Shown here: piece after piece, positions 40,432 to 64,000 of the stretch
Layout: each line of letters opens with the position of its first letter
How positions within the stretch are numbered: the first letter of the stretch is position 1
Source: Phallus indusiatus
Lineage: Eukaryota; Basidiomycota; Agaricomycetes; Phallales; Phallaceae
Direction: 5' to 3'
Length of the DNA stretch: 64,000 nt
NCBI GenBank assembly: GCA_027605045.1
Contig: JAQFWX010000038.1
Span: 124,001-188,000 of the forward strand
Program-made: the position numbers and the translations under genes
Notes under the pieces: generated by a model
What the model was told of the DNA's origin: nothing
What the model saw: the letters and a program-made list of their open reading frames with translations, nothing else
The model's database searches: none

Positions 40432-40447
40432 ATTGCAGGAGGATTCA

Positions 40448-43628: not shown

Positions 43629-43630
43629 GT

Positions 43631-43641
43631 AGAACAAGCTT
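43631..43641 (+). other. Putative self-priming primer-binding site of chromovirus 2
   Basis: AGAACAAGCTT, 2 nt after the 5' LTR, is the exact reverse complement of AAGCTTGTTCT in the LTR. In Tf1-type elements the first 11 nt of the mRNA prime reverse transcription at such a site. No tRNA 3' end complement was recognised here. Confidence 0.55.
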
Positions 43642-43793
43642 CTACTCGCAGACTGGCCGTTTCTATCGACACTCGTTATCGAAAAATCGCGCTCGACACC
43701 GACTATCGCAGTGTCGTATTTTTCCTTCGAGTCCCGTCTATAATCGACCCCTCTGCTCCATCTTAAAAACCCCTTTCCTTTTCTCTCTCTCTC

Positions 43794-45104
43794 ATGGACT
43801 CTTCACCTCCACCCTCTGCGCCCCAGATCGTCACCCTCAACGATGTGGCGACTATTATCATGCGGCAATTCGCGGAAATGGATGCCCGCATGGCAAGACA
43901 GGAATCCCAGGCCTCACAGATGATTGAGGTCCTACGGGACATCCGAGACACGACTAGAGCTGCCCCCACCCAAAACCCCCCTACTGACGACGCGTCCTCG
44001 CCTGGACAACCACCGGCTCCTGAGCATCAAGCAAGTTCGCGTTCTTCCCGAAACACCCGACCTGCTGTACCTCCTTCGTTCGACGGAGATCGCTCCAAAG
44101 GACGTGCCTTCTGGAACACCGTCGAGTTTTACATGAGTATATGCAGTCGCGACTTCGAGACTGATGAACTCAAGATCGGTTGGGCAATGTCGTACATGAA
44201 CGAAGGCCGCGCCCTCGCTTTCAGTGAGTCTATGTTGAAAAGATACCAAAGAGGAGAAAAGCCTTTCGCCGACTGGAACGCCTTTCGAGAACGATTCAAA
44301 ACGGATTTCTTTCCACAATCCGAGCAGGAGGATGCCATCAACACCCTCTATTCCAACCGCTACATCCAAGGCAACAGAACTGTAGAAGAGTATGTGGACG
44401 CCTTCCGCGTGCTCATCGAGCACGCTGGCTTTACGGAGGGACTCGCCATTAACACGTACTTTCGTAACGGTTTAGACCCGGCAATTGCCTCTCTGGTAGC
44501 GACGATGAAAGACCGACCCGCGCTTCACGACTATGAGGGCTGGATCAGGCAAGCACGCATGTTTGACATGGACAGACGTTCCAACGAGGCATTCACCGCT
44601 GCTCGCCGTCGACTCGTGGGCTCTGGAACGACTCAGACAAATCCCGCGACGGTCCCCATTAATCGACCTCGTCCCAACCCCTTCCCGTCGTATCAGACCC
44701 TCCAGATCCAGAGGAGGCCCCTTGTCCCTTCCTATCAGGCTCCTGCCTACCCACCTCCCAGGCCTATACCCCAGGTCATGCCCGCACCGCCCCCTAGACC
44801 CGCGGCTTCTGCTCCTACACCCCAGGTCAGGCATGATCCGATGGACGTTGACGCTGCTCGTCGACGCTTAGGCCCAGAATCGACCAGGTGCCGTCGCTGT
44901 GGAGCAGCAGGCCACTGGGCTCGCGAATGCCCTCGCGCGTATGACATTCGGTATCTCCAGCCGGACGAGTTAGACGACAGTATCGTACAGTTACTGGCCC
45001 AGAAAGACGCGTTAGAAGCCCAGGCGCGTGGCGACCCTGCTCTGACAGAAGGTGAAACTGTAGCTGCAACAGAGGTAGAGGATTTTCAAAACGGCGATGA
45101 GTGA
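43794..45104 (+). CDS. gag of chromovirus 2
   Basis: 436 aa. ATG 43794 begins MDSSPPPSAPQIVTL and is followed by a coiled-coil stretch (FAEMDARMARQESQASQMI). The capsid domain is VPPSFDGDRSKGRAFWNTVE with WNAFRERFKTDFF and YIQGNRTVEEYVDAFRVL, as in Ty3/Gypsy retrotransposon Gag. A Pro/Arg-rich linker leads to a zinc knuckle CRRCGAAGHWARECP. The protein would form the virus-like particle and bind the RNA. The stop at 45104 overlaps the pol frame, which is offset by one position, so pol is probably reached by -1 frameshifting. The frame is undamaged. Confidence 0.93.
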   Translation: MDSSPPPSAPQIVTLNDVATIIMRQFAEMDARMARQESQASQMIEVLRDIRDTTRAAPTQNPPTDDASSPGQPPAPEHQASSRSSRNTRPAVPPSFDGDRSKGRAFWNTVEFYMSICSRDFETDELKIGWAMSYMNEGRALAFSESMLKRYQRGEKPFADWNAFRERFKTDFFPQSEQEDAINTLYSNRYIQGNRTVEEYVDAFRVLIEHAGFTEGLAINTYFRNGLDPAIASLVATMKDRPALHDYEGWIRQARMFDMDRRSNEAFTAARRRLVGSGTTQTNPATVPINRPRPNPFPSYQTLQIQRRPLVPSYQAPAYPPPRPIPQVMPAPPPRPAASAPTPQVRHDPMDVDAARRRLGPESTRCRRCGAAGHWARECPRAYDIRYLQPDELDDSIVQLLAQKDALEAQARGDPALTEGETVAATEVEDFQNGDE

Positions 45105-45396
45105 TAGATGCACCCTCGTTGCCGACATCTAATAGATTCGACATTTTGTACATAGATCGCGAACAAAATGACATTCCTGATTCGAATCTAACTACCCCTG
45201 CTGCATCCCCTGATAAACCCAAAGAATCGCCTCCACCTGCTACACGCTCTGTTTCCATTCCATGTATGCTGTCGCCTTCTCAATGTCGCTCATTGCCAAG
45301 TGAATACCGACTCGCAGCTACCGCTGGTACGCAGAAGCTGGAGATCCCTGTAGAGCTACAGAGTGTTGACACTGGGACCTTGCTGCACAGCAAGGC

Positions 45397-45717
45397 TGTA
45401 ACGTTTCGTTACTTTTTATAGTGTACCGCTTGCGGTACACAGTTTATATCACGCTGTAGTTTCACGCCACAAGTAACAGACCAAAGTGCTGTATTTTCTT
45501 TGTGGAGTAAAACAGGTTGCGCGTGCTGAATCAGCACGCGCGTAGCTACTACTAATGTATAGTTATTACATAATGGCTCGCCGCGGCGCGGCGAGCCAGA
45601 GGCGTTAAGCGCCTCTGTTATTAGAGTAAGTAATAGTAACTACTGCAGAGGGCGAAGCCCTCTGCATATGCCTAAGTGGCATATACTCAATCCACCGCAT
45701 GCGGTGGATCTGTTACA
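45397..45717 (-). repeat. 3' LTR of hairpin element copy II
   Basis: A row of perfect palindromes: 45421-45440 (9-bp arms, 2-nt centre), 45519-45541 (11-bp arms, 1-nt centre), 45575-45597 (10-bp arms), 45597-45617 (8-bp arms), 45645-45665 (9-bp arms) and 45690-45709 (ATCCACCGCATGCGGTGGAT, a complete 20-bp palindrome). Confidence 0.93.
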
Positions 45718-45779
45718 TCCTCCCCTTGTGACTTGGACTCCAAGTCATAGGATCGCGAAGAGGAGGCATCTGACTGTAA

Positions 45780-47941
45780 TCAGTCAGAGGGATTGCTGTA
45801 GTCAATCTCCATGCTCTCCGAGGCACTCGGATGCGGTGCGTCAAGGTCCTCAGGGGGCCTCAACAATTCCTCGTCCGTCATCTGAATTGGGACGGACGGG
45901 GAGTAAACCTTATTAGGCGGGCCTGCCACGATACTGGCAGGTGATGCCGACGCATGGACGGCGGGGGCGGCTGACTGAGTCGTACGCGCCTTTTTTGTTG
46001 GACGATCCAGTCCACGGCGCACGCGATAGTCATGCGCGATGCGATTAACATCTTCTCCATTGGCGTAACGTTGGAGAAGGGGCGCGATCACCTCAGTGAC
46101 GCGTCTTGTCGTCGCTCCATTGGCGTGCATGGAGCGAATCACCTCCTCTATGGTAATGGAGGAGGGGGATTTGCACTCGAAGGAACGAGTGTAGCCTTCC
46201 ATGAGCGTGGAAGGCAGGTGGGTGGAGGAATTACCCCTACCACCGAGAACTTCTTCCCACACAGTAAGTGCGGGGTCGAGGAGGCATTCAGCCGCCTTCT
46301 CGAGGAACTTGGCACGTACTTCACGAGTACGTGTGACTCGTTTGAGCCATGCGAACACCTCAACATCTTGAGGGTTTAATGATCCATCCGACATTAGTCG
46401 GATGTAGGGAGGGACCTGGTTAGGGTCCGCATTCCAAGTATTGATTAAATACTTGATCTCGGGGTGGATTAACTCTCCCGAGATAAACACCACCGATAGA
46501 CGGTTGGCGGCAGCCTCCATAGCTTCAAGCTTGGCTGTTTTCCTCGCCAGGCGGCGCTCCTTCATGGATCTGCGCCAACGAGTCCATGCGTATGAAATAC
46601 GCATGTGAACCCCTCTGTCATCGGGGTACGTGAACACCGGGGGGTCGGTCCAAACCCGGGTTCCAATCTCGACGAACAATGGTTCGTCGAGGCTGCAGGT
46701 GTTATACCATGCAGTAGGATTGGGGGTGCCAGGCACCAGAGAATGATCCCCACTAACAGTGGGGTCGAAGCCCTTGACGAAGAAGGGCCATGGGTCCCTG
46801 TTGGAGTCCCATCCTGGCTTGGTCCGTGGATACGGACCAGAGGGCTTCCTTGGAGAAACCGGGGCAGCATCGCGAGAGCCCGATGCCTTGGTTGCATCAG
46901 CGTAGGTACGCTGAGGCTTGCGTTTGGTGGACGACGCGATGGAGGCGTCGTCATCATAGTCGTTATCATCGACTATGTCTTCCATGTCGTCGTCAGACGA
47001 CATGTCATTGAAGATATCTGTTAGGGCTACTCAGCTCACACTAGAGGGAGGGGATCCTAAGGTAAATATATTTGGGAGAACTAACTACTCACCTAGAGGG
47101 AGGGGATCCTAAGAGAACAAGCTTAGGGACCCTCACTCTAGGGACAGCGACTATATACATGAAAAACGATAGCGCGGCGTGCGGCCCTGACACAGCTAAG
47201 TGCCAGACGCCCAAACCGAACATAAGCGACGTGACGCCTACGGCGTCACGCCGGGTACGAGCGCGCGATGCGCGCAAGTAGAGAAAGTGGAATAGAGACA
47301 GAGGGAGCAAACGGAGGGTGGAGATAATATATGGGAAATATAAATAACGTAGAGGGAAATATATACCGATGATAATAAATGAGAAAAAATGAGGGGACGC
47401 GGTAGCGTACCCTGACAATATCAGGCAAAGGGGCTGCCTGGGGTGGCTCAGGCGCTTTGTCGGCCTGGTCTCTCGACCGCTTTTTGGAGGTTGATGGGGA
47501 AATCGACGGGCCTGCCGTCGACGCTGAACGTTCAAGTTCAGCAATACGAGCTTTCAACTCGTAGATACGACGATTCGCATCGTCGAGGTGATCTGTCAAG
47601 GACTTGACGTCCTTTTCAGCCTCTTCTAGACGTTCGTCTAGATGATAGTACTCCCTTTTTATGAAGGGAAAGGCCTTGTAAACGGCCTGCTTGACCACGT
47701 CATGGTCAAGGATGATTGCCCCGCTGCCAGCGGGGCCTGCCAGATGACTGGCAAAGTCGTTGCACGCAGTGCAACTATCATTGTTATGATAGACGGATAT
47801 ACATCCGTCCATCGCGTCTAAGGTCCATTCGGACCTCTGCAGAGCCAATTGAGCTTCTGCCTTTTTGAACCTACTAACAGGTTGCGGCGTAGGCGACCGC
47901 GAGCGTGATCATTCGCGTTGTTTTCCCTTGCTGTCAGGCAT
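45780..47941 (-). pseudogene. third ORF of hairpin element copy II, about 585 codons, function unknown
   Basis: ATG 47941 begins MPDSKGKQRE, and then a TGA (47911-47909) replaces an Arg codon present in copy I. The frame continues through an RS-like segment, a Cys pair (CTAC), a long coiled coil (HLDERLEEAEKDVKSLTDHL, RIYELKARIAELE) and a basic KKRSRD signal. There the solo LTR 47019-47417 interrupts it. Excision of that LTR with one ATATC copy restores the frame into a very acidic stretch (SSDDDMEDIVDDNDYDDD), a Trp-rich globular part (DPWPFFVKGFDP, YAWTRWRRSMKERRLARK), a helical part (VIRSMHANGATTRRVTEVIA) and an acidic end. It has no signal peptide or membrane helix, so it is not an envelope-type protein. 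I do not recognise the family. It is also present in copy I. Confidence 0.8.
47019..47417 (-). mobile_element. solo LTR D of the chromovirus family inside the third ORF of copy II
   Basis: 399 bp with a 5-bp duplication ATATC (47014-47018 and 47418-47422). It is the youngest layer of the nest, since it sits inside copy II, which sits inside a chromovirus of the same family. Confidence 0.93.
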
Positions 47942-48075
47942 GGGGGGTGTTGAGGGAGAAAAGACCGTGAACGGACTTTTGGGTTATATACTTGGGCGGC
48001 CTCATGGAGCGCCCAAGTGAAAATTACCTCACCGCGTAGCAGTGAAGTGCCAGTGGATCCCTGTGGGTGGGATCT

Positions 48076-51000
48076 TCAAGCAGATCCCCGAGTGGGATCT
48101 GAGCGCTTGTTGTTGGTCCGCGACTCTCCGTGATTGGACAGTCGTGGCAGCTGCCGAGACTCGCTTACGCCTCGTAATTGCAAGTACTCGTCTAGAGCTT
48201 GCAAGTCCTTACAGTTACTGTAAGGTTCCCAGGTGGTATCCCCAAGGGTCCACTGGACTAGGAACTCGAGATCTTTTTCGCGAGTTCCACTCCAGCGATG
48301 AGCTAGGAGTTCCTCGACGTGCCATTCAGCATCGTCTGGCTGTCCAAAGTCATACGCCGTGAGCGTATCGCGGCGTGGAAATCTCTCATCGTCATTGGCG
48401 ATGTGAGGTTTAATCAAATCCACGTGAAATACGGGATTTATGCGACGTTGCTTGAGCTCTTCAGAGAGCTCAAGTTTTACAGTAATGTTGTCCTTGACGG
48501 ACAGCACTTTGTATGGTCCCACATAACGCGGGATCAACTTCTTAACTCTCCCCTTGGGGAGGTTGAGGTTCCTCGTCGACAGATAGACGAGATCACCCTC
48601 TTTGTACTCCGGTGCATCGCGCCGTGAGTTGTTCGCGTAGTGAGCCTGTTTAACGCGATTGGCTATGATAGCGTCATGCGCTATCATGAGATTCCACTTA
48701 GCCTGTTGAGCAAAGTGTTGAACACCTTTGAATTTGGTGTTCGTCTCAATTTTTCTTCCCAAACTGGGAAGGTAGCCGTAATTGAGTTCAAACGGCGCGA
48801 AACCAGTGGTTTCGCTGGTGCTGCTATTAATAGCAAACTCCACCATTGGGATCCTTTCGGCCCAATCTTTTTGATCGTTCTGTATGACGGAACGAAGTAT
48901 TTGACCAATTGAGCGATTGGCTCGCTCGGTAGATCCATCCGTTTGCGGATGGAACGCCGTGGACATGAGCAATCGTGTCCCCATTAGGCGTTGCAGTTCC
49001 TGCCAGAACTTGGCAGTGAATCGTGCATCCCTGTCACTCACGATTGAGTCAGGGACACCGTGGAGTCTTACGACTTCACTGAGGTATAGCCAGGCTGTGC
49101 CATTGGCGGTCAGCTTGGTGGTGGTTGGCATCAGACGAACCATAGAGGTCAGTCTGTCAATCACGACGAATAGGAAGTCGTGGCTGTTTGAAACGGGTAA
49201 TGGACCGATGAAGTCCATTCCAATCGATTCCCAAGGTCTATTGGGAATCGGGAGTTGTTTTAACAGACCACTGGGGTGATTATTCTCCCCTTTATTGGTC
49301 TGGCACGCTCCGCAGGATCTGCAGAACGTATCGATGTCTTCAATCATCGATTTCCACCAGTACGCTTGTCTAACGTACTGAGACGTTTTGTAACGTCCAA
49401 AGTGCCCAACAATTTGGTGGGCCTCACTGATTATAATCTCAGTGATCCTCCTCCCCTTGTAAAGTGCGTTATGGGGGACGCATAATACGTCGCGGAGGAA
49501 CTGATTCTTGGTAAAGATCAGTTGGTTTTTAATTCCAAACGCCTTGTGAGCGTTTGGGTTGGCAAGGACCAGCTTAAATACTGGGTCCTTGTGATAACCT
49601 TGCTGTATCAGCGAGGTAAATTCAGCAAAGCCCTCAATTTTGGCTTTAAGAAGCTTGCTGTTTTGCTCTGCACTTAGAGCAAGTATATCCTCATCGGATT
49701 GCGCTTCTGTAATATCAGAAGGTGTAGTATTTGAGGGACCTTCAACTCGAGGTTCCTCTCGTACTCGTGAACGTGTAATAACGTTCACTCTCACTTCATC
49801 CCTTCTTTCGATGGGAAGATGATCCCCTTCGGGATCAAGTCTAACGTCAGCATTGACGTATACCTCCGGAGGGTGAACCTCATCCGGAGAGTCCTCTTCG
49901 TAATAACGAGAGAGGCCATCGGCGACATTGTTAGTGACGCCCTTGACATGAATCGTCTCGTAATCAAAACGAGACAGGTATTCATACCACCGTGCTTGGC
50001 GCGGTGACATGCGAGGCTGGGTCTTGAAGTGGACCATGGCCTCATTGTCCGTTACTAGGGTGAATCTTCGCCCTAGTAGTTTGTCTTCCCACTTGAGGAA
50101 GGCTTCAAGTACCGCGATGAGCTCATGCTCATGGGTGCGGTAGTTGTACTGCGCAGGGGTGAATTTCTTCGAGAGAAACCCTGCTGGCCTACATGTCTGC
50201 CATGTAGGCCCTTGCCCATAATAGGCACCGACGCCACATTTGGAGCCGTCGGTTACGACCCAAATTGGATCTGGGTCGTCCACGTTAATAGGCTTCAAGA
50301 TAGGAGCCTTTCGCGTGAGTGCTTTGATTGAATCAAAGCACTTGTTCAACAATGGCGTCCATACGAACGGTCTGTTGTTGTACGTACACCCTGATAGTGG
50401 TGTAGTGTATGCGGCTACCCCTGGTAGGTATGCCGCAACGTATTGTACGAGGCCCAGAAATTTCTGGACATCGTTATACGTGCGTGGAGTTCTCCACTCA
50501 CGTATTTTATCCATCTTCTCGTGATCAGGATGGATACCATCATCGTCGATGATGTAGCCTAAGCACTCCAGTCGCCTAGAGTACAAATCAACTTTACGAC
50601 TACTTAGGTAAAGTTGTGCTTCTCGCAGACGCGAGAAGGCATTCTCTAGATGCTGCTGATGCAGATCTATTGTGTTTGAATAGACGAACACGTCGTCTAT
50701 GTATGCATCCGTCGAACGACCGATGCAGTCCCTAAATATATGGGTCATCAGACGTTGAAACGTCGATGGGGCATTGCAGTCTCCTTGCTGCATGACATGG
50801 CTCTTGAAAGTGCCATAGATGGTGGCAAAGGTCGTCTTGTGGACGTCCTCTGGGACTATGCGTACCTGCTCGTACGCCTCAGTCAGATCAATCTTTGATC
50901 TGTATTTGTGTCTCGCCACGTTCTGGCGGATGGTTTCCTGGTCAGGGAAGGGCGTTACGTCCTTCTCTGTGTTTTCGTTCTGCAGGCGCAGATCGAACAC

Positions 51001-51477
51001 GGTCCGTAGTGCTAAGACCACGGCTCGTTTCTGCAGGCAAAGCATAGGGATTGCCTGTGTAGCTACAGTTGGTTCCCACCAACCTGCAGCTACGTATCGC
51101 TGAATCTTCTCAGCGAGTAGCGCTTTGAGCGCATCCGGGCACCTGGGAAGGTGGTACCGGATCTTCTTATTGGGTTCAATAAGAGGAATCTGATGATTCA
51201 CTTCCCGAAACGGGGGAAGTCGGGAAGGGACAGGACCGAAAAGGTCACTGTACTTGTTCTTCCAGTACTCGATGAGTGCTGGGATATTCTCTTCCGTCAT
51301 CGCAGGGACGGAGGAGCTGGAATGTTGGGTGCTGGCTAGCACCATCGCTCCTGTCTCAGGAGCGTGTCCAATCACATGGTGATTGGTGTCAATCACCTCG
51401 CCGTCGCGGGTGATTGTACCTCTGCTGAAATCCAGGCAGATGTTGTAGCGTCTCAGGAATGGGACGCCAATGATCAC
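48076..51477 (-). CDS. pol of hairpin element copy II (RT, RNase H, integrase, chromodomain)
   Basis: An open frame of 1133 codons from just after the protease region to the stop. RT: KIDLTEAYEQVRIVPEDVHK, QQGDCNAPSTFQRLM, YIDDVFVYS. RNase H: WVVTDGSKCGVGAYYGQ, HEHELIAVLEA, TDNEAMV. Integrase: zinc finger HQIVGHFGRYKTSQYVRQAY..CRSCGACQ; DDE core MDFIGPLPVS, VSDRDARFTAKFWQ, FHPQTDGSTERANRS. Then YVGPYKVLSVKDN and a chromodomain (WHVEELLAHRW, LEFLVQWTLGDTTWEP). The intact catalytic residues suggest an active polymerase, but the upstream gag-protease part is frameshifted, so this copy alone could not make the whole polyprotein. The ORF has no natural start of its own, since gag-pol is a single frame in this family. 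Confidence 0.9.
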   Translation of the reverse strand: MIIGVPFLRRYNICLDFSRGTITRDGEVIDTNHHVIGHAPETGAMVLASTQHSSSSVPAMTEENIPALIEYWKNKYSDLFGPVPSRLPPFREVNHQIPLIEPNKKIRYHLPRCPDALKALLAEKIQRYVAAGWWEPTVATQAIPMLCLQKRAVVLALRTVFDLRLQNENTEKDVTPFPDQETIRQNVARHKYRSKIDLTEAYEQVRIVPEDVHKTTFATIYGTFKSHVMQQGDCNAPSTFQRLMTHIFRDCIGRSTDAYIDDVFVYSNTIDLHQQHLENAFSRLREAQLYLSSRKVDLYSRRLECLGYIIDDDGIHPDHEKMDKIREWRTPRTYNDVQKFLGLVQYVAAYLPGVAAYTTPLSGCTYNNRPFVWTPLLNKCFDSIKALTRKAPILKPINVDDPDPIWVVTDGSKCGVGAYYGQGPTWQTCRPAGFLSKKFTPAQYNYRTHEHELIAVLEAFLKWEDKLLGRRFTLVTDNEAMVHFKTQPRMSPRQARWYEYLSRFDYETIHVKGVTNNVADGLSRYYEEDSPDEVHPPEVYVNADVRLDPEGDHLPIERRDEVRVNVITRSRVREEPRVEGPSNTTPSDITEAQSDEDILALSAEQNSKLLKAKIEGFAEFTSLIQQGYHKDPVFKLVLANPNAHKAFGIKNQLIFTKNQFLRDVLCVPHNALYKGRRITEIIISEAHQIVGHFGRYKTSQYVRQAYWWKSMIEDIDTFCRSCGACQTNKGENNHPSGLLKQLPIPNRPWESIGMDFIGPLPVSNSHDFLFVVIDRLTSMVRLMPTTTKLTANGTAWLYLSEVVRLHGVPDSIVSDRDARFTAKFWQELQRLMGTRLLMSTAFHPQTDGSTERANRSIGQILRSVIQNDQKDWAERIPMVEFAINSSTSETTGFAPFELNYGYLPSLGRKIETNTKFKGVQHFAQQAKWNLMIAHDAIIANRVKQAHYANNSRRDAPEYKEGDLVYLSTRNLNLPKGRVKKLIPRYVGPYKVLSVKDNITVKLELSEELKQRRINPVFHVDLIKPHIANDDERFPRRDTLTAYDFGQPDDAEWHVEELLAHRWSGTREKDLEFLVQWTLGDTTWEPYSNCKDLQALDEYLQLRGVSESRQLPRLSNHGESRTNNKRSDPTRGSA

Positions 51478-54400
51478 ATCATAGTGATCGATGTTGACGA
51501 TGTCAAAGTACTCTTGGACATCGATACCTCCAATTGGATTCGGGTGTACGTTCCATACTGGATGGAAGACTTGCTGCCCTTAACGGCCAGCTGCAGCACG
51601 ACAGGTTTGTCGAGCTTGAAGGTTCTTGCCCCGGTGGCAAGAGAGAAATGAGGGGACATGATCATCCCCTGGCATCCACTGTCGACTAGGCAGTGAGCCA
51701 ATTGGCCATTAACTGGCCAGAAACCCTCAATGGGTCTCGATGCGTTTCTGTCTCGTGTTGGGGCACGAGAGCTCACTCTAGCCGTATGGTCATAGAGTGG
51801 TTCCTTGCTCGTAGCGAGCGAGGACTCATTGTCATCCAATGGCGATGACTTGTGGACCCCGAAGTGCAGTCTGCGCTCCTCATACTCGTCACCAATTGTG
51901 AGGAGCATGTATACACTGGGACCATTGTCATCATCGTCCCATTGGTATTGGATGCCCTCGTCGTCCTCGACGGGGTCGTTGGTGGGCTCGTCTTGGGCCA
52001 CCTCTTCCTCCACAGCTTGTTCAGCTGTGGGGTCTTCCACGTTCTCCTGCGGGGCATCGTTCAATGTCTCGCCAGAGGTCTCTTCAACCTCTTCGATACG
52101 ACCCACATTGGCTCGTACCTGTCTCAGTCTGGGGCATGCATTTCTGTAATGTCCCACCTGCCCACAGTTGAAACACGTGGGAGGGGTAGTGCTAGTGCGA
52201 TTGTTCGTACTAGTTGGGGCAGTCCTAGCGGGCTGTGAGTTATGATTTCTCGAGCTTGATGAGCTCGAGGGTTCCCCAATGGGGAATTGCCATTAGTTCG
52301 CGTCTCATGAGGACGCGCAGAGGGACCGTGGTTCCTCTGGTTCAAGCGCATGTTGTTTGAGTGCGCTTGTCTGGCCAAGTTAGTGTGGCTGCTGCTGCTG
52401 CCACTACCACTACTGCCACTACTACCCGTTGGACGGGTAGTGCTTCCTTGGGAGGCCGTTATCGACCTCCGCTTCTTGAACGCCTCCTCTACTTGGATGG
52501 CGAGTGCAAGAAGTTCCTTAGCAGACATCTGCTCAGGACTACCGCCTCTGAATGCTACTTCAGCGGCGAGGCTGTGGTTCAGCCCATCAAGGAACCTCCT
52601 CCTGAATGTATAATCATCAGGAGGGTGCGCTAGTCTGTTGGCTAGCGTGAGTAACGCACTCATGTATTCGTGTACAGAGTGCGATCCTTGCCGTTCGCGT
52701 TCGAACTGGATCGCCACCTCACTTCTCGAGTGGGGTGGGAGGAATCGTTCGTGTAGTCTCCGTAGCGGGGACTAGGGTCCACTCATGCATGGGACGAGTA
52801 CCTCGTTCCACGTTCTGGGTGAACCACTCTTGTGCCAGCCCTTCTAGGCGCATGCCTAGAAAGGAGAGTTGCTCTGCTTGGCTGACTTCTCCAAGCAGGT
52901 GGTTTACGTGTAGCCAGCGTAACAGACCCGACACAAAGTTGTCGAAGTCCTCGGCTCTGGACGAGCCGCTATATGTGGGCGGGAGCCCTATCTTCGCTCC
53001 TGCTTTCGCAAGGGGCGAGTTGCCTGGCATCATATCCCTGTTTGCAATCAGGGCTTCTTGAACCATGGCTATGACGCCCTCAAGTACTGGGGCGTCGTCG
53101 TTGAAAGGGTCAAACCTTTCAACACGTTCCTCATCGAACGGTGTGGCGCGGAGATCCTCGCCATACTGTGGTCGACGAGCGTATCCATCATATGGATCGA
53201 TACGTGGTGCTTCTGCTGGGTTAGCAGATGCTTGCCTCTGCCCATTGGGCTCAGCACTTTGCCTTGGCAGTTGTCTGCCAGGGGGTGATGCTCTGTCGTC
53301 TGGACGACTTGAGCTTGTGGCTGGGTCTGGCGATGGGATCCTATCGCCAGTGATGGCATTATAGCCACCTTCAAGCACACGAGCATGGCGGACCGCGTTC
53401 ATACACGCGTCCCTCGCGATGCGGATCCTATCTTGGATGATCCGCATTTGCTGCTCGTTGGGAGTGTCAGTCTCGAGAGAGCCTGCTACAGCTTCCTCGA
53501 GCGCGTTAGTGGCCGTCTCCACAGCCCGTGCATGCGTACGGATTGCTCTGTCGGAGAGTAGCCTTGCTATCCTCTGGTATTCGAGGGCAGCTTGGGCGAC
53601 CACTTCAGCATCCTCTCGTGGGGGTGCTCCATTCCGCGACTGGTTCACCAGTCGCGTGGCTATCTCGGTATCGATATAGTCACCAACCGCGTCAGACTCG
53701 TGAGGCGGTTGTCTTGTGAAACGGTGCATTCGTCTCACTGTTTCTCTGCCAGCCTCTATTTCGGGGCCGGGGTTTCTAGGAGCTGTATATGCTGTAGCTC
53801 CTTGAGTAGGAGGTCTATCAGGACGCGTACTCGGTCCTGGGGTAACGTTCTGGGAACGTTGTCTGGTGCCTGTTGGTGCAGGCTCAGGGGATTGGGAATT
53901 ACCAGCTGTCGCTGGTGACGGACTGGCATATGTCGGTCCTGTCGGTGTAACAAACCTAGCTTGTGGGGCTGGGTTTGTGAATTGATATGCAAGGCGACTC
54001 GTCGGCCCTGCTGGTCTAGGACGAGTAGATCCAGTACCTGATGCAGGCGGATCTACCGCTCTGCTTTTTCCTTTGTCAGAGCGTGCTCGTGCAGGCTCTG
54101 CTTCAGGAGACAAGTCTGTCGTCCTGACTTGGTCCCTGTCAGTGCCTGTAGTAACAGGCTCTGGCTCAGGGTTTTCAACTCCTGCGTTGACGTTCTCGAT
54201 TAATCGAGCTAGTCTCTGCAGTTCTGACGGGGACATATTCCCGTTCCTCACGCCATCGAGTAACGATGCGTGAACAGCGTTCATTGTCTCGTCCCTTCGG
54301 ATGGACCTGTCGCTCCTGACGCTAAGTCTGGAGCGACCAGATGCTACGGACTTTACGTCCTCATCTTCTTCATCAGCGAGTTGGGGCTGATGTTCCATCG

Positions 54401-54590
54401 TCTGCGATGCAGAACGAGTGGGATTTTGTGTTGATGCATCCACTCTCTCCCATGTGGATGACTCTCCTTCGAGGGTTCCTTCCCTAGATGGGTCGGGATT
54501 TTCGGTTTGCACTGGCCCGGGTGGGTCAGGCTGATTGGAATCAGGTGTACCACGATCTGGTGCACTCTGACTCCTGGTAGTAGGAGCCAT
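51478..54590 (-). pseudogene. gag and protease part of gag-pol, hairpin element copy II, three frameshifts
   Basis: ATG 54590 (MAPTTRSQSAPDRG) is open to about 52,770, where a 2-nt loss relative to copy I shifts the frame. A 4-nt loss near 52,275 shifts it again just before the zinc knuckle, and a 1-nt loss near 51,535 shifts it after the protease. The protease motif is CLVDSGCQGM (Asp-Ser-Gly), and CCHC and capsid motifs match copy I. The two larger losses lie at short inverted repeats, as if small-hairpin processing changed loop or arm length. Confidence 0.85.
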
Positions 54591-54675
54591 TGAATCCTCC
54601 TGTAATAGGAAGGGTTAATTTCGCTTGCTTAATACAGCGGCGGGTTGTTTTTAACGCCTTTGGTGTTAAAAAAGA

Positions 54676-54996
54676 TGTAACGTTTCGTTACTTTTTATAG
54701 TGTACCGCTTGCGGTACACAGTTTATATCACGCTGTAGTTTCACGCCACAAGTAACAGACCAAAGTGCTGTATTTTCTTTGTGGAGTAAAACAGGTTGCG
54801 CGTGCTGAATCAGCACGCGCGTAGCTACTACTAATGTATAGTTATTACATAATGGCTCGCCGCGGCGCGGCGAGCCAGAGGCGTTAAGCGCCTCTGTTAT
54901 TAGAGTAAGTAATAGTAACTACTGCAGAGGGCGAAGCCCTCTGCATATGCCTAAGTGGCATATACTCAATCCACCGCATGCGGTGGATCCGTTACA
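54676..54996 (-). repeat. 5' LTR of hairpin element copy II
   Basis: 321 bp, one substitution from the other LTR (GGATCCGTTACA here, GGATCTGTTACA there). Confidence 0.93.
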
Positions 54997-55426
54997 AAGG
55001 CCATGCTAGACACTGGGGCTAGCGGTATGTTCCTCGACCGCAACTTTGTCGAGAAACATCGACTTCCCTCCGTACGTCTTGCTAAACCAATTCCCGTGTT
55101 TAACGTCGACGGTACACCCAATCATGCTGGCTCTATCACCCACGTCGTTGATCTGGTCGTTCGCTTTCGGGATCACTCTGAACGTACCTTGTTCGCCGTT
55201 ACCTCGCTCAAGTATCCCGTCTTGTTTGGGCTACCATGGTTCAAGGCCCACAATCCCGTTATAGATTATACAACTGGTCAGGTAGAGTTCATGCGCTGCA
55301 GCCCTAGTTGTCGGTCTTGTGCTCCGCGCTGGCCAGCGGGTAAGCTTTCTAAGCGTGCATTCCAGCAGATCCGACGCGCACCTCTGCCAGAACTTGACAG
55401 CACTGAAGCCGATGACCCTGATATAC

Positions 55427-56035
55427 TGTCACGACCCTCGTGCCACCCGATCCTAATCCGGACCTCTCCGAGGTCCGGCGCCCAAACCCCGTCCATATTT
55501 AGTATATCCGCCAAGTCCGAGTGTCAGTACTTGCCCAACAGTGCGTAGTCCGTTATTCTGTCCACGTCCGGTAAGTCCGAGGTCCGGACTTCGTCCGGAC
55601 TAGGACATTTCCTTATGGGGACATTCTGTCCGGAGCATTAGAAAGCAAGTGCCAGATATGTTTCTGGTGCTGTGCAACTAGTCTCCTTTTAGTTATATCT
55701 CCTTTAGTTCTAGTAGTCTAGCTTTTTGTATTTAAAGCCCCCAGACTTCGTCTGGGGCTCCCCAGTCTGAATATTAAGTTCATTTCGAGTCTATCCTCAG
55801 CCAGTCTCTTTATAATCAATTCTATTCTTATCTATTTCGCTTAAAGTCCGCTCCCAGTACTTGTCCGGACCTGCCCGGACTACGTCCGGGCTGTCTCGGA
55901 CTTCTAGTCCGAAATTAAGGGATATTCAGGGTCGTCTGAGTCGGCGCAGCACATAAGCTGAAGCCAAGTCCCTTTTGTCCCGTAGTCCGGACTCTCCGGA
56001 CTTCCACCCAGACGCCCGGAACACGGCGCGTGACA
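55427..56035 (+). mobile_element. solo LTR E, third Gypsy family, in the pol of chromovirus 2
   Basis: 609 bp, TGTCACGACCC..GCGTGACA, with a 5-bp duplication TATAC (55422-55426 and 56036-56040). It is rich in GTCCGGAC and related CCGGA/TCCGG words in both orientations, and has TATTTAAAG near 55,728. Its removal restores the chromovirus frame (DDPDIPDLVDVE). Confidence 0.92.
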
Positions 56036-59000
56036 TATACCAGACTTGGTCGACGTCGAGTCTGAGATTGAAGAAGGCGATCGACTGTTCGCGATATCGA
56101 TGCTGCCCGACGAGCCCGACGTTCACCGCATATATGCCACAGAGACCGTCTCCCAACGACTAGCCCAGGCCCACGCCAATAACTCGGACGCGCCAGCTCC
56201 CAGAGGCTTTCGGGACATCGTGCCAGAGATGTTCCACGACTTTGCCGACATTTTCTCAAAGGAGTCGTTCGACTCGTTGCCGCAGTCGAAGAAATGGGAT
56301 CACCCGATAGAACTTGTGCCAGGTTCTGAGCCCAAGTCGTGCAAGATCTACCCGTTGTCGCCCAACGAACAGGCCGAGTTAGATGCATTTTTGGAAGAGA
56401 ACCTTGCGTCTGGACGAATCCGACCCTCCAAGTCACCAATGGCATCCCCGGTATTCTTCATCAAGAAGAAGGATGGCTCTCTCCGTCTCATTCAAGATTA
56501 TCGTGCGCTGAATGCTATGACGATTAAGAACCGTTACCCGTTGCCCCTGATCTCAGAGCTCATCAACAAATTGCAAGGTGCTCGGTACTTCACCAAGCTG
56601 GACGTACGCTGGGGTTACAACAACGTGCGGATAAAGGAAGGAGACGAGTGGAAGGCCGCTTTCCGCACCAACCGTGGTCTTTTCGAGCCCCTAGTAATGT
56701 TCTTTGGTCTCACAAATAGCCCTGCGACCTTCCAGACGATGATGAACGAGATCTTCGAGGACATGATCTCAGAAGGTGTCGTTGCCGTCTATATTGACGA
56801 CATCCTCATCTATACTCGGGATCGGGAACAGCATGACCAGGTAACACGACGCGTTCTCGAACGTCTCCGCGAGCACAAGCTGTATCTCAAGGCAGAGAAG
56901 TGCGAGTTCTGTCGGACTAAGATCGAATATCTGGGTGTCGTCATTTCCGAGAACACCGTAGAGATGGATCCCGCGAAAGTCTCGGGTGTCAGAGACTGGC
57001 CTATCCCGAAGAACGTCACTGAGGTGCAGTCCTTCTTAGGTTTCGCCAACTTTTATCGTCGGTTCATCAAGGATTTCGCGCGCATTGCCAATCCCATGTT
57101 CGGGCTAACCAAGAAGGACACTCCCTTCGTCTGGTCCGACACTTGTCAGCATGCTTTCGATACTCTGAAGTTGTCGATCACCTCTGCCCCCATTCTTCTC
57201 ATTCCCAACCCCGCTAATCCTTACCGGGTTGAAGCAGACAGCTCCGACTTCGCAACGGGTGCGGTTCTCTCACAGTTGTCGAACGAAGACGGTAAATGGC
57301 ACCCTGTTGCGTTTTTCTCGAAGGCCCTTAGCCCCGTCGAACGCAACTATGAGATTCATGACAAGGAGATGCTCGCTATCATACGATCTTTGGAAGAATG
57401 GCGACACTTTCTTGAAGGCGCGTCTCACCCTATCGACATACGGACTGATCACAAGAATCTCGAGTACTTCATGACCGCGCGTAACCTCAATCGTCGTCAA
57501 GCTAGATGGTCAGTATACCTCTCACGATTCGACTTTACTCTACAGCATATACCGGGTAAGTCGATGGGTAAACCTGATGGCTTATCCCGTCGCCCAGATC
57601 ATGGCTCGGGAAAGGACGACAATCGTGGCGTCACCTTAATCCGACCCGAAATGTTTGCAATCAATGCCCTGCAAACATTCCGTCTTAAAGGGGAGGAGGA
57701 GGACCTTTTACGCCAGATTCGCAAGGCCAATCGAGAAGGCAAGGTCGAAGATAGCGTGTCCAAAGCCGTTGCAACACTCCGCGCCCTGGGTGGTCGTTCA
57801 GCTCACTCATCGGAATGGTTTGAAGACCAGGACCTCCTCTACTATCGCGGCAAGGTTTACGTGCCAAATGTGGACAAATTGCGTCGGAAAATCCTTTCCA
57901 GACACCACGACACCAAACTCAGCAGTCACCCTGGTCGTTTCAAGACTCTCGAGCTCGTTTCGCGCACCTTCTGGTGGCCAGGTGTCTCTAGGTATGTTCA
58001 GCGTTACGTTGAGGCCTGCGACATGTGTTTGCGTACGAAACCTTCACGCCATGCACCCTACGGTCTTCTCCGACCCACAGAAGTACCAAGTCGACCTTGG
58101 GAACACATCTCGGTCGATTTCATCGTGGAACTACCAGAATCCAACGGTTTCGACGCGATCCTCTCTGTCGTCGACTCTCTCACCAAACGGGTTCATTTCG
58201 TGCCGACATTTACGACACTTGACGCGACAGGTCTAGCCCGACTGTACCTTCAACACGTCTGGAAGCTCCATGGTCTCCCCTTGAAGGTGATCTCTGACAG
58301 AGGCCCCCAGTTCGCGTCTCGCTTCACGCAGGAACTTTCTAGGCTCCTTGGCATACGGCTTGCACCCTCGACGGCATATCATCCTCAAACCGATGGTCAG
58401 ACAGAGCGCGTCAACGCAGAGGTCGAACAGTACCTTCGACTTTTCACCTCTGAGCGACAGGACGACTGGGACCAGATACTGCCCTTGGCTGAGTTCGCAT
58501 ATAACAACCACGTACACTCAGCTACGCGTGCGACACCGTTCGAGCTCGACACTGGACGACATCCTCGTATGGGATTCGAACCGTTGGTCGCCGACTCGAA
58601 GATCGAATCTGTCAACGAGTTCAAGACGCGTATGGAGTCGACGATCGAGGAAGCCAAGGCTGCCATCGCCAAGTCGAAGGACGAGATGGCCAAGTACTAC
58701 GATCGGAAACACATCCCTGCACCTGAATACAAGGTTGGCGATAAGGTCTACCTCGATTCGAGCGACATTCGCACCACCAGGCCCTCCGCCAAGTTGTCGC
58801 ACCGGTACCTAGGCCCTTTTCCGATAGTCAGCAAGGTCGGATCACACGCATACAAGCTGCGTCTACCACTGTCGATGTCAAGGCTTCATCCAGTGTTCCA
58901 CGTCGGGAAGTTACGTCCAAAGGTTGAAGACACGATCCCGGGTCGTCGCGTTAAGGCTCCTCCGCCTCCTGAGGTCAGAGATGACGGTGAACACTACGTC

Positions 59001-59262
59001 GTAGAACGGATTTTGGACAGTCGCGTGTTCCGGAGACGACTCGAGTATAAGGTGCGTTGGGAAGGCTATGGTCCCGAGCATGACCAATGGGAACCCGAGT
59101 CGAACATTGCAGCCCCGGATCTCATTAGGCAATTCCACCGCGAACATCCGAGTGCGCCACGCTCGATAAATGGTCTTCTTTTCCATCGTCGCCCTCGGTT
59201 CGATTTCTCTAAGTTACAGGCATCATTAGTCGAGGCTACAGGCGTCGGGACGTCGCCTCGTT

Positions 59263-59276
59263 GAAGGGGGGGGTGG
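59263..59276 (+). other. Polypurine tract of chromovirus 2
   Basis: GAAGGGGGGGGTGG directly before the 3' LTR, overlapping the pol stop codon; it would prime plus-strand synthesis. Confidence 0.75.
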
Positions 59277-59664
59277 TGTCAGGGTACGCTACCACCGTCT
59301 CTCATTTTTCTATTTATTATCATCGGCATCACTTCATTTCCATTCCATTTACTATTTCCGTATTTTACTTTTATCTTCCGTTCCCTTGTTCAGTCTCTAT
59401 TTCGCATTCTCTACTCGCGCGCGCGCGCCCGGCGTGATGCCCGTGACATCATGTCGCTTAGGCTCGGTTCGGGCGCCTAGCACTTAGCTGTGTCAGGGCC
59501 GCACGCCGCGTTATCGTTTTTCATGTATATAGTCGCTGTCCCTAGAGTGAGGGTCCCTAAGCTTGTTCTCTTAGGATCCCCTCCCTCTAGGTGAGTAGTA
59601 TAGTTCTCTCAATATATTTTACTTAGGATCCCCTCCCTCTAGCCTGAGCTGAGTAGCCCTAACA
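59277..59664 (+). repeat. 3' LTR of chromovirus 2
   Basis: 388 bp. It differs from the 5' LTR mainly by loss of 9 bp in the CG-alternating stretch near 59,420 and by substitutions such as CCCGTGAC for CCCATGAC. Confidence 0.93.
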
Positions 59665-59669
59665 ACTCC

Positions 59670-62600
59670 TCGCTCGCTACGAGCAAGGAACCACTCTATG
59701 ACCATACGGCTAGAGTGAGCTCTCGTGCCCCAACACGAGACAGAAACGCATCGAGACCCATTGAGGGTTTCTGGCCAGTCAATGGCCAATTGGCCCACTG
59801 CCTAGTCGACAGTGGATGCCAGGGGATGATCATGTCCCCTCATTTCTCTCTTGCCACTGGAGCAAGGACCTTCAAGCTCGACAAACCTGTCGTGCTACAG
59901 CTGGCCGTTAAGGGCAGCAAGTCTTCCATCCAGTATGGAACGTACACCCGCATCCAATTCGGAGGCATCGATGTCCAAGAGTACTTCGACATCGTCAACA
60001 TCGATCACTATGATGTGATCATTGGCGTCCCATTCCTGAGACGCTATAACATCTGCCTGGACTTCAGCAGAGGTACAATCACCCGCGATGGCGAGGTGAT
60101 TGACACCAATCACCATGTGATTGGACACGCTCCTGAAACAGGAGCGATGGTGCTAGCCAGCACTCAACATTCCAGCTCCTCCGTCCCTGCGATGACGGAA
60201 GAGAATATCCCAGCACTCATCGAGTACTGGAAGAACAAGTACAGTGACCTTTTCGGTCCTGTCCCTTCCCGACTTCCCCCATTTCGGGAAGTGAATCACC
60301 AGATTCCTCTTATTGAGCCCAATAAGAAGATCCGGTACCACCTTCCCAGGTGTCCGGATGCGCTCAAAGCGCTACTCGCTGAAAAGATTCAGCGATACGT
60401 AGCTGCAGGTTGGTGGGAACCAACTGTAGCTACACAGGCAATCCCTATGCTTTGCCTGCAGAAACGAGCCGTAGTCTTAGCACTACGGACCGTGTTCGAC
60501 CTGCGTCTGCAGAATGAAAACACAGAGAAGGACGTAACGCCCTTCCCTGACCAGGAAACCATCCGCCAGAACGTGGCGAGACACAAATACAGATCAAAAA
60601 TTGATCTGACTGAGGCGTACGAGCAAGTACGCATAGTCCCAGAGGACGTCCACAAGACGACCTTTGCCACCATCTATGGCACTTTCAAGAGCCATGTCAT
60701 GCAGCAAGGAGACTGCAATGCCCCATCGACGTTTCAACGTCTGATGACCCATATATTTAGGGACTGCATCGGTCATTCGACGGATGCATACATAGACGAC
60801 GTGTTCGTCTATTCAAACACAATAGATCTGCATCAGCAGCATCTAGAGAACGCCTTCTCGCGTTTGCGAGAGGCACAACTTTACCTGAGTAGTCGTAAAG
60901 TTGACTTATACTCTAGGCGACTGGAGTGCTTAGGCCACATCATTGACGATGATGGTATCCATCCTGATCACGAGAAGATGGATAAAATACGTGAGTGGAG
61001 AACTCCACGCACGTATAACGATGTCCAGAAATTTCTGGGCCTCGTACAATACGTTGCGGCATACCTACCAGGGGTAGCCGCATACACTACACCACTATCA
61101 GGGTGTACGTACAACAACAGACCGTTCGTATGGACGCCATTGTTGAACAAGTGCTTTGATTCAATCAAAGCACTCACGCGAAAGGCTCCTATCTTGAAGC
61201 CTATTAACGTGGACGACCCAGATCCAATTTGGGTCGTAACCGACGGCTCCAAATGTGGCGTCGGTGCCTATTATGGGCAAGGGCCTACATGGCAGACATG
61301 TAGGCCAGCAGGGTTTCTCTCGAAGAAATTCACCCCTGCGCAGTACAACTACCGCACCCATGAGCATGAGCTCATCGCGGTACTTGAAGCCTTCCTCAAG
61401 TGGGAAGACAAACTACTAGGGCGAAGATTCACCCTAGTAACGGACAATGAGGCCATGGTCCACTTCAAGACCCAGCCTCGCATGTCACCGCGCCAAGCAC
61501 GGTGGTATGAATACCTGTCTCGTTTTGATTACGAGACGATTCATGTCAAGGGCGTCACTAACAATGTCGCCGATGGCCTCTCTCGTTATTACGAAGAGGA
61601 CTCTCCGGATGAGGTTCACCCTCCGGAGGTATACGTCAATGCTGACGTTAGACTTGATCCCGAAGGGGATCATCTTCCCATCGAAAGAAGGGATGAAGTG
61701 AGAGTGAACGTTATTACACGTTCACGAGTACGAGAGGAACCTCGAGTTGAAGGTCCCTCAAATACTACACCTTCTGATATTACAGAAGCGCAATCCGATG
61801 AGGATATACTTGCTCTAAGTGCAGAGCAAAACAGCAAGCTTCTTAAAGCCAAAATTGAGGGCTTTGCTGAATTTACCTCGCTGATACAGCAAGGTTATCA
61901 CAAGGACCCAGTATTTAAGCTGGTCCTTGCCAACCCAAACGCTCACAAGGCGTTTGGAATTAAAAACCAACTGATCTTTACCAAGAATCAGTTCCTCCGC
62001 GACGTATTATGCGTCCCCCATAACGCACTTTACAAGGGGAGGAGGATCACTGAGATTATAATCAGTGAGGCCCACCAAATTGTTGGGCACTTTGGACGTT
62101 ACAAAACGTCTCAGTACGTTAGACAAGCGTACTGGTGGAAATCGATGATTGAAGACATCAACACGTTCTGCAGATCCTGCGGAACATGCCAGACCAATAA
62201 AGGGGAGAATAATCACCCCAGTGGTCTGTTAAAACAACTCCCGATTCCCAATAGACCTTGGGAATCAGTTGGAATGGACTTCGTCGGTCCATTACCCGTT
62301 TCAAACAGCCACGACTTCCTATTCGTCGTGATTGATAGACTGACCTCTATGGTTCGTCTGATGCCAACCACCACCAAGCTGACCGCCAAGGGCACAGCCT
62401 GGTTATACCTCAGTGAAGTCGTAAGACTCCACGGTGTCCCTGACTCAATCGTGAGTGACAGGGATGCACGATTCACTGCCAAGTTCTGGCAGGAACTGCA
62501 ACGCCTAATGGGGACACGATTGCTCATGTCCACAGCGTTCCATCCGCAAACAGATGGATCCACCGAGCGAGCCAATCGCTCAATTGGTCAAATACTTCGT

Positions 62601-63466
62601 TCCGTCATACAGAACGATCAAAAAGATTGGGCCGAAAGGATCCCAATGGTGGAGTTTGCTATTAATAGCAGCACCAGCGAAACCACTGGTTTCGCGCCGT
62701 TTGAACTCAATTACGGCTACCTTCCCAGTTTGGGAAGGAAAATTGAAACGAACACCAAATTCAAAGGTGTTCAACACTTTGCTCAACAGGCAAAGTGGAA
62801 TCTCATGATAGCGCATGACGCTATCATAGCCAGTCGCGTTAAACAGGCTCACTACGCGAACAACTCACGGCGCGATGCACCGGAGTATAAAGAGGGTGAC
62901 CTCGTCTATCTGTCGACGAGGAACCTCAACCTCCCCAAGGGGAGAGTTAAGAAGTTGATCCCGCGTTATGTGGGACCATACAAAATATTGTCCGTTAAAG
63001 ACAATATCACAGTAAAACTTGAGCTCTCTGAAGAGCTCAAGCAACGTCGCATAAATCCCGTATTTCACGTGGATTTGATTAAACCTCACATCGCCAACGA
63101 CGATGAGAGATTTCCACGCCGCGATACACTCACGGCGTATGACTTTGGACAGCCAGACGATGCTGAATGGCACGTCGAGGAACTCCTAGCTCATCGCTGG
63201 AGTGGAACTCGCGAAAAGATCTCGAGTTCCTAGTCCAGTGGACCCTTGGGGATACCACTTGGGAACCTTACAGTAACTGTAAGGACTTGCAAGCTCTAGA
63301 CGAGTACTTGCAATTACGAGGCGTAAACGAGCCTCGGCAGCTGCCACGACTATCCAATCACGGAGAGTCGCGGACCAACAACAAGCGCCCAGATCCCACT
63401 CGGGATCTGCTTGAAGATCCCACCCACAGGGATCCACTGGCACTTCACTGCTACGCGGTGAGGTAA
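59670..63466 (+). pseudogene. pol part of gag-pol, hairpin element copy I
   Basis: The frame continues directly from gag after chromovirus 2 (..DEDS then SLATSKEPLYDHTAR). Protease VDSGCQGM is near 59,812, RT YIDD near 60,789, RNase H VTDGSKCGVGAYY near 61,240, and the integrase zinc finger and DDE motifs are as in copy II. At 63214-63217 a run of four A replaces five A in copy II, shifting the frame inside the chromodomain (SGTREK then a stop at 63233). The lost part continues in another frame to 63466. This is the only lesion seen in gag-pol of copy I apart from the chromovirus insertion. Confidence 0.88.
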
Positions 63467-63500
63467 TTTTCACTTGGGCGCTCCATGAGGCCGCCCAAGT

Positions 63501-63507
63501 ATATAAC
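63501..63507 (+). promoter_or_regulatory. TATA-like element before the third ORF of copy I
   Basis: ATATAAC directly follows a strong stem (ACTTGGGCG pairing with CGCCCAAGT, 63471-63500) and lies 45 bp before ATG 63546. The same arrangement exists in copy II (near 47,985). It suggests the third ORF may have its own transcript. Confidence 0.4.
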
Positions 63508-63545
63508 CCAAAAGTCCGTTCACGGTCTTTTCTCCTCACACCCCC

Positions 63546-64000
63546 ATGCCTGACAGCAAGGGAAAACAACGCGAACGATCACGCTCGCGGTCGCCTACGC
63601 CGCAACCTGTTAGTAGGTTCAAAAAGCAGAGGCTCAACTGGCCCTGCAAAGGTCCGAATGGACCTTAGACGCGATGGACGGATGCATATCCGTCTATCAT
63701 AACAATGATAGTTGCACTGCGTGCAACGACTTTGCCAGTCACCTGGCAGGCCCCGCTGGCAGCGGGGCAATCATCCTTGACCATGATATGGTCAAGCATG
63801 CCGTCTACAAGGCCTTTCCCTTCATAAAGAGGGAGTACTATCATCTAGACGAACGTCTAGAAGAAGCTGAAAAGGACGTCAAGTCCTTGACAGACCACCT
63901 CGACGATGCGAATCGTCATATCTGCGAGCTGAAAGCTCGCATTGCTGAACTTGAACGTTCAGCGTCGACGGCAGGCCCGTCGACTACCCCATCGACCTCC
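63546..64000 (+). pseudogene. third ORF of hairpin element copy I, frameshifted, runs off the window
   Basis: ATG 63546 gives MPDSKGKQRERSRSRSPTPQ with the Arg codon that is a stop in copy II. At about 63,630 a single G is missing relative to copy II (TTCAAAAAGCAG versus TTCAAAAAGGCAG), and the frame fails within about 20 codons. The downstream sequence is otherwise colinear, with the DAMDGCISVYH part and the coiled coil. The two copies are broken at different places, so the ancestral ORF was open in both. Confidence 0.82.

Follow-up and report, generated by a model that had tools for sequence, protein, structure and literature searches.

Short perfect hairpins tile a Ty3/Gypsy-type LTR retrotransposon family and its sister family in a probably basidiomycete genome

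The window, which is the whole stretch of 64,000 nucleotides that was analysed, belongs to a genome assembly of 67.2 Mb in 206 contigs and harbours a set of nested retroelements. The host is probably a basidiomycete, judging from the named relatives of the pol protein in Trametes, Phanerochaete, and Phlebia (51-53% identity; closest relative 62%). Element A displays Pfam matches in the order protease, reverse transcriptase (RT), RNaseH, and integrase, which is the Ty3/Gypsy order, and is interrupted by a chromovirus (chromovirus 2), with ACTCC bordering the insertion at positions 43227-43231 and 59665-59669. Chromovirus 2 is itself interrupted by copy B. A preliminary description of this DNA had described one element, which corresponds to element A, but copy B is a second, complete copy. 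Both belong to F1, a family of Ty3/Gypsy-type LTR retrotransposons, and F2 is its sister family. The features are, in the order of their coordinates:

39204-39523, plus strand: 5' LTR of element A, hairpin-tiled, 93.5% identical to the LTR of copy B
40433-43231, plus strand: part of the gag ORF of element A, with Retrotrans_gag and zinc knuckle, hairpin-tiled
43232-59664, plus strand: chromovirus 2, inserted in element A, not hairpin-tiled, ACTCC at both junctions
54996-45397, minus strand: copy B, a complete F1 element with 321-bp LTRs and a GCCTT direct repeat
45397-45717, minus strand: 3' LTR of copy B
45780-47003, minus strand: ORF3 of copy B, no Pfam family, hairpin-tiled
47019-47437, minus strand: chromovirus solo LTR inside copy B, not tiled
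48076-51477, minus strand: pol of copy B (RT, RNaseH, integrase, and a weak chromodomain), 68 hairpins with arms of at least 6 bp
52719-54590, minus strand: ORF in gag position of copy B, no Pfam match in this copy, hairpin-tiled
54676-54996, minus strand: 5' LTR of copy B, 321 bp, stems of 6-11 bp
59665-63233, plus strand: protease-RT-RNaseH-integrase ORF region of element A, hairpin-tiled
63234-64000, plus strand: element A beyond pol toward ORF3, hairpin-tiled, continuing outside the window

The LTRs of copy B (321 bp) are 99.7% identical to each other, with GCCTT on both flanks, and at least 40 genomic places are 97-100% identical to a 601-base piece of pol. Element A (39204-64000) and copy B are 92.8% identical in gag and 97.8% in pol, a mosaic identity that suggests recombination between sub-families. 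Copy B (45397-54996) and an F2 copy (L041, L042) both lie inside chromovirus sequence related to chromovirus 2, and a target preference is possible. An ORF3 follows pol in both families (407 aa at 45780-47003 of the window, minus strand; 606 aa in F2, L041:2848-4668, minus strand); neither belongs to a Pfam family at cut-off, and the F2 protein gave weak coiled-coil matches only, with no solved relative below E 0.7. No TGG primer-binding site was found after the 5' LTR (window 54591-54675, minus strand, and L042), the longest LTR complement in the leader being 9 nt, and a leader block, ATCTTTTTTAACACC, together with a hairpin containing one A.C mismatch, is common to F1 and F2. Priming of reverse transcription in these families may hence be unusual. 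Elsewhere in the window, a long ORF (19690-22620, plus strand) begins with a short Sir2 match.

Hairpins were counted as perfect arms separated by loops of 3-15 nt, and coding sequences were compared with 200 codon-preserving shuffles. In the pol of element A (59715-63233), 73, 44, and 26 hairpins were present with arms of at least 6, 7, and 8 bp, respectively, against shuffle means of 12.8, 4.1, and 1.3 (maximum of 200: 26, 10, and 4). The gag ORF (40433-43231) contained 38, 22, and 10 hairpins against 7.2, 1.75, and 0.54, and the gag of A as well as the pol, gag, and ORF3 of B all showed a 16-22-fold excess at arms of at least 8 bp. Between positions 63567 and 64000, element A still carries nine non-overlapping hairpins with arms of at least 7 bp. 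In contrast, chromovirus 2 pol contained 11, 2, and 1 hairpins against 10.7, 3.1, and 0.62 in its shuffles, and neither pol nor gag of the chromovirus showed an excess, nor did two further ORFs, single hairpins aside. The preliminary description had claimed about 30 distinct hairpins in 59700-60905, a density beyond chance, and a contrast with chromovirus 2. Indeed, 28 perfect hairpins with arms of at least 6 bp (24 non-overlapping) were counted in 59670-60905; all seven hairpins that it had quoted were present, two of them one pair longer (60128-60146 and 60308-60327, with 8-bp arms). Neither of the two outcomes that it had named as refuting, a density within the shuffle range or an equal density in chromovirus 2 pol, was found. 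The stems listed share no common sequence, so that a repeated hairpin unit was ruled out; their loops range from 3 to 13 nt. Known RNA families were absent at the gathering threshold from 36000-64000.

The preliminary description had placed the tiling in coding sequence. This was borne out for gag, pol, and ORF3, but the tiling extends to the LTRs, with 15.6 hairpins with arms of at least 7 bp per kb. The F1 LTR contained six arms of at least 8 bp versus 0.08 in 500 dinucleotide shuffles (maximum 2), and a chromovirus LTR one hairpin versus 0.43 in 300 such shuffles. Enrichment in the pol of copy B (arms of at least 6 bp) was 5-12-fold for loops of 3-13 nt, 2.4-fold for 14-16 nt, 1.3-2.3-fold for 17-60 nt, and 0.8-fold for 61-80 nt. 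Copy B as a whole contained 18.1, 11.8, and 7.4 hairpins per kb at arms of at least 6, 7, and 8 bp, against 2.45, 0.68, and 0.17 in the random genome, as estimated from 17 of 20 random 10-kb stretches (L012, L018, and L027 excluded). Two of the 20 stretches were dense over kilobases and both contain F1 or F2 elements; L012 contains a 500-base hairpin cluster. The probability that chance, base composition, or codon bias explains the tiling is practically nil, as no supporting point was found, as the 26 arms of at least 8 bp in the pol of A compare with a shuffle maximum of four, and as two families and the F1 LTR all agree on the excess, the F2 LTR alone being weaker.

The collection of genomic copies and relatives revealed the sister family F2, which is tiled too. 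Its members are L027, from the random sample, and nine of 12 pol stretches that were retrieved later; they are 69-71% identical to F1 in DNA and 74-77% in protein. F2 pol contains 33-42, 13-17, and 1-3 hairpins with arms of at least 6, 7, and 8 bp, against about 9.7, 2.6, and 0.7. F2 is thus enriched in stems of 6-7 bp, and those of 8 bp or more are rare in it; the peak in F1 is at 8 bp, and arms of exactly 8 bp numbered 20 in F1 (0.9 expected) and two in F2 (0.6 expected). The LTRs follow the same tendency, with arms of 6-11 bp in F1 and mostly 5-6 bp, with one of 9 bp, in F2. The F2 LTR contained five arms of at least 6 bp versus 0.93 in 500 dinucleotide shuffles (maximum 5), which is not decisive by itself. 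The typical stem length is family-specific, also in LTRs, which are free of protein constraint.

The contrast with chromovirus 2 that the preliminary description had drawn holds, but another LTR-type family of the genome, a reverse-transcriptase family (L056, L058-L060), is weakly tiled, hairpins being enriched 1.9-2.3-fold at arms of at least 6 bp. Further, 13 loci with Gypsy-type pol were retrieved from bacterial records (L043-L055), which probably represent eukaryotic contamination; 12 of these were scored, one frame being too short. L052 had 14 hairpins with arms of at least 6 bp against about 4.4-4.6 (maximum of 300 shuffles 13), L054 had 18 against 10.9, and nine against 2.8 at arms of at least 7 bp, and L043 had seven against 4.1 at arms of at least 6 bp. 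The remaining loci were near expectation (0.5-1.6-fold at arms of at least 6 bp). Among viral contigs, no DNA relatives of the element were found.

Overlaps between hairpins are far below random, so that the hairpins exclude one another, as folding on a single strand would lead one to expect. In six stretches (copy B for F1, and F2), 10 overlapping pairs were found versus 62 at random placement, and in the pol of A four versus 30, whereas the overlaps among chance hairpins in shuffled sequence come close to random (6.8 versus 7.6). The tiling is real and travels with the F1 and F2 families, and its hairpins are compatible with one another on one strand. Overlap exclusion was considered as decisive evidence for selection and rejected, since a template-switch simulation with fold competition also yields it.

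RNA folding, which the preliminary description had proposed, revealed a folding-energy excess over codon shuffles of 39.4, 31.0, and 27.7% for the pol, gag, and ORF3 of F1, respectively, with an excess of 21-43% in all 17 F1 fragments, and of 10.7-12.2% for F2; chromovirus pol (-3.0%) and the ORF with the Sir2 match (0.0%) showed none. This would be expected from selection for a generally structured nucleic acid, in which hairpins arising by ordinary mutation are kept in folded genomic RNA or minus-strand cDNA, the benefit conceivably being escape from host RNA silencing or nucleases, or better packing. Such selection is a serious, albeit minority, possibility. Besides the folding energy, it can draw on the exclusion of overlaps and on a stem length that is typical of each family even in the LTRs. 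However, selection on a sense RNA should favour G.T pairs. In F1, stems of at least 7 bp with G.T numbered 22 versus 16.5 expected and those with A.C 58 versus 25; in F2, the values were 28 versus 15 and 46 versus 26, respectively, so that G.T was not preferred over A.C in the stems of either family. These counts make use of gag 52719-54590; for the F1 fixed-mismatch and one-arm comparisons, gag 52159-54590 lies partly in another frame, which makes the shuffle control slightly off. The folding excess of F1 pol is larger on the sense strand (39 versus 32%). Relative to rates outside stems, stem transitions in F1 numbered 22 versus 34.8 toward A.C and 29 versus 20.7 toward G.T, and in F2 17 versus 22.9 toward A.C and four versus 21.1 toward G.T. 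The strand signals thus disagree, as fixed mismatches of F1 favour the antisense strand, its polymorphism the sense strand, and F2 polymorphism the antisense strand; opposite strands in the polymorphism of the two families speak against selection for structure. In the other reverse-transcriptase family, the folding excess was 12-15% sense versus 5-8% antisense (L056, L058-L060; L057 and L061, 3-5%), and stems of L058 with G.T numbered 13 versus 6.4, and with A.C nine versus 9.7. This pattern resembles ordinary structure in a sense RNA.

Compensatory changes, seen between close as well as more distant relatives, also fit selection for structure. Indeed, when pairs of F1 stems with arms of at least 6 bp had changed on both sides in F2, Watson-Crick pairing was kept in 20 of 36 cases (56%; control 38%); in the reverse direction, this was so for 17 of 27 (63%; control 41%). 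At arms of at least 8 bp, it was kept in seven of 18 cases, without excess over the control. Many F1 stems are broken in F2, yet both families are dense in hairpins. Within families, one 7-bp stem shows a compensated pair between L029 and L036 of F2, and four such pairs were seen between B and L018 of F1, which are about 6-13% apart; in one LTR hairpin of the latter two, all 20 arm bases are the same and all three loop bases changed. Of the hairpins tallied, 41 of 85 in B are broken in L018 and 16 of 70 in L018 are broken in B, the LTR of L018 being compared with both B LTRs, and hence counted twice, and hairpins with indels being excluded. Similarly, in F1 as in F2, shared third-position variants are less common in stems than in loops, with frequencies of 0.050 in stems (219 sites), 0.136 in loops (110), and 0.064 outside in F1, and of 0.012 (171 sites), 0.051 (99), and 0.047 in F2. 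Single-copy variants, however, are rarer in stems in F1 only, the values for F2 being 0.094 versus 0.071, and correction by template switching would likewise give compensation and low stem polymorphism. Change was not concentrated in one arm beyond random between F1 and F2; F1 stems of at least 7 bp had a weak left-arm excess (100 versus 72, p 0.04) that was absent in F2.

Traces of template switching were sought in three LTR hairpins of copy B:

54923-54945, minus strand: LTR hairpin 1, 10-bp arms, loop TTC (GAA in other copies)
54798-54820, minus strand: LTR hairpin 2, 10-bp arms, loop ATT (AAT in three of 58 places)
54853-54877, minus strand: LTR hairpin 3, 11-bp arms, loop GCC (GGC, GAC, and GTC in other copies)

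Among the matches listed for hairpin 1 (100 of 132), the loop was TTC in 86, GAA in nine, TTT in two, and GTC, AAA, and GAC in one each; a further search within two mismatches gave GAA at 15 of 19 places. The GAA loops occur on both flank types, GTAG and GTAA. GAA is the exact reverse complement of TTC, so that it would take three transversions by substitution and one event by inversion, and transitions make up 86-97% of the changes in the F1 and F2 alignments (in F1, 58 of 60 changes confined to a single copy and 56 of 65 shared ones; in F2, 167 of 195 and 45 of 50, respectively). Hairpin 2 had ATT in 55 places and AAT in the other three, and hairpin 3 had GGC, GCC, GAC, or GTC. For hairpin 3, 51 of the listed places were used, nearly all of the others belonging to a sub-family whose inner arm carries T. 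The middle-base flips GAC/GTC, ATT/AAT, and GGC/GCC are each possible by one transversion. An unpaired control triplet varied among TAC, CAC, and CAT only (few transitions), without an inverted form, a coding loop was CAT in 56 of 56 places and never flipped, and the F2 loop letters, obtained at eight of 156 places, were all TCG. In LTR pairs, assigned by spacing (same-strand places 8.5-11 kb apart), one of 23 was discordant for hairpin 1 (TTC versus GAA) and three of nine for hairpin 3, namely two GAC versus GTC and one transition. Element A has GAC in its 5' LTR (11-bp hairpin at 39323) and GTC at the presumed 3' LTR 26.1 kb downstream.

In the part of the source drawn on here, template switching at inverted repeats is described as inverting the loop and homogenising the arms (PMC8604942). 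Template switching across the LTR hairpins of F1 is therefore strongly indicated, by inference from the flips. At most, however, the flips show switching and not the origin of the tiling, since they are an expected by-product of any long-armed hairpin. Template switching during reverse transcription, selection for RNA structure, and a hairpin mutator had all been proposed in the preliminary description; switching as such is backed by the loop inversions, with reverse transcriptase as its probable agent, and mutation and selection are both candidates for the main driver. Switching could also act on DNA, through host polymerase or repair at chromosomal inverted repeats, and the hairpins could alternatively be binding sites of dimeric proteins, but a DNA-level process of either kind is improbable. 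Short-inverted-repeat template switching has been described in chromosomal replication, as far as the parts of the two sources used here extend (PMC8604942, PMC8794818), and the differences within LTR pairs could postdate insertion. Against this, no enrichment was seen in chromovirus 2, in the window's remaining ORFs, or in random genome stretches, several LTR copies have uncorrected transitions in their hairpin arms, and the stems listed have no sequence in common and loops of 3 to 13 nt.

We put at about an even chance the proposal that the tiling was built by arms being re-copied from each other during element replication, filtered by protein constraint. A single-stranded replication intermediate would fold into a chain of short compatible hairpins, within which the enzyme making the copy, most probably the reverse transcriptase of the element itself, would occasionally switch template. 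One arm would then be re-copied from the other and the loop might flip; as changes tolerated by the protein are kept, stems would become and stay perfect, with a length typical of the family. The density, its spread over the whole length, the exclusion of overlaps, the joint changes of paired bases, and the LTR loops in both orientations are observed; that switching caused the flips, that reverse transcriptase was the enzyme, and that copying rather than selection was the main driver is what we infer from them. Simulated switching on random genes reached or exceeded the F1 density in most runs if 2-5% of amino-acid changes were tolerated. Strictly synonymous simulations reached a plateau at 22-30 hairpins with arms of at least 6 bp per 3 kb (about 62 in F1), and low switching rates gave little gain. 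Without fold competition, 19-30 of 28-39 arms of at least 8 bp were 9 bp or longer, versus six of 26 in F1 and none of two in F2. Simulated overlap relative to random was 0.5-1.05 without fold competition and 0.17-0.35 with it; since the latter reproduces the low overlap, overlap exclusion does not separate copying from selection. Copying is favoured by the loop flips and by the lack of a G.T preference, whereas the ceiling on stem length points to selection or a property of the enzyme.

Searches of open-access full text that were aimed at a hairpin-tiled LTR element listed none. In fungal mitochondrial DNA, double-hairpin elements occur as inserted repeats that are related in sequence and have spread through the genome, whereas the F1 hairpins differ from one another and are written into coding sequence. 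The genome-scale ordered RNA structure (GORS) of persistent RNA viruses, as characterised in the excerpts drawn on here, resembles F1 and F2 in its consecutive stem-loops through the genome, its large folding-energy excess, and its individual pairings, which are poorly conserved between relatives while the overall structure is kept. Unlike in GORS, F1 is an LTR retrotransposon, probably fungal, with short perfect Watson-Crick stems and no G.T preference. The excess of 28-39% in F1 lies above the 23.4% given as the highest recorded in the portion used of a coronavirus paper (PMC7642675), fragment length and shuffling method being different. Template switching at inverted repeats, in the sections used of PMC8604942 and PMC8794818, brings about arm homogenisation, loop inversion, and compensatory changes as seen here, but it concerns single inverted repeats of cellular genomes and not a whole tiled element of about 9 kb. 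The RNAs of Ty3, Ty1, and HIV-1 are mosaics, with stable structured regions making up to 30% of Ty1 and Ty3 (PMC11381356, in part); Ty3 is, like F1, a Ty3/Gypsy-type element with structured RNA regions, and the same portion of its description does not mention tiling by perfect hairpins.

Mutation rather than selection may set the structure of the whole element, a retroelement rewriting its own genes into palindromes over many cycles; this is a tentative reading, quite possible yet falling short of an even chance. F1 and F2 constitute a natural many-copy system in which the origin of hairpins can be traced from sister families down to the LTRs of one insertion. They allow tests of whether selection is required for compensatory evolution or template switching can drive it, and also of whether a structured genome shields a mobile element from its host.
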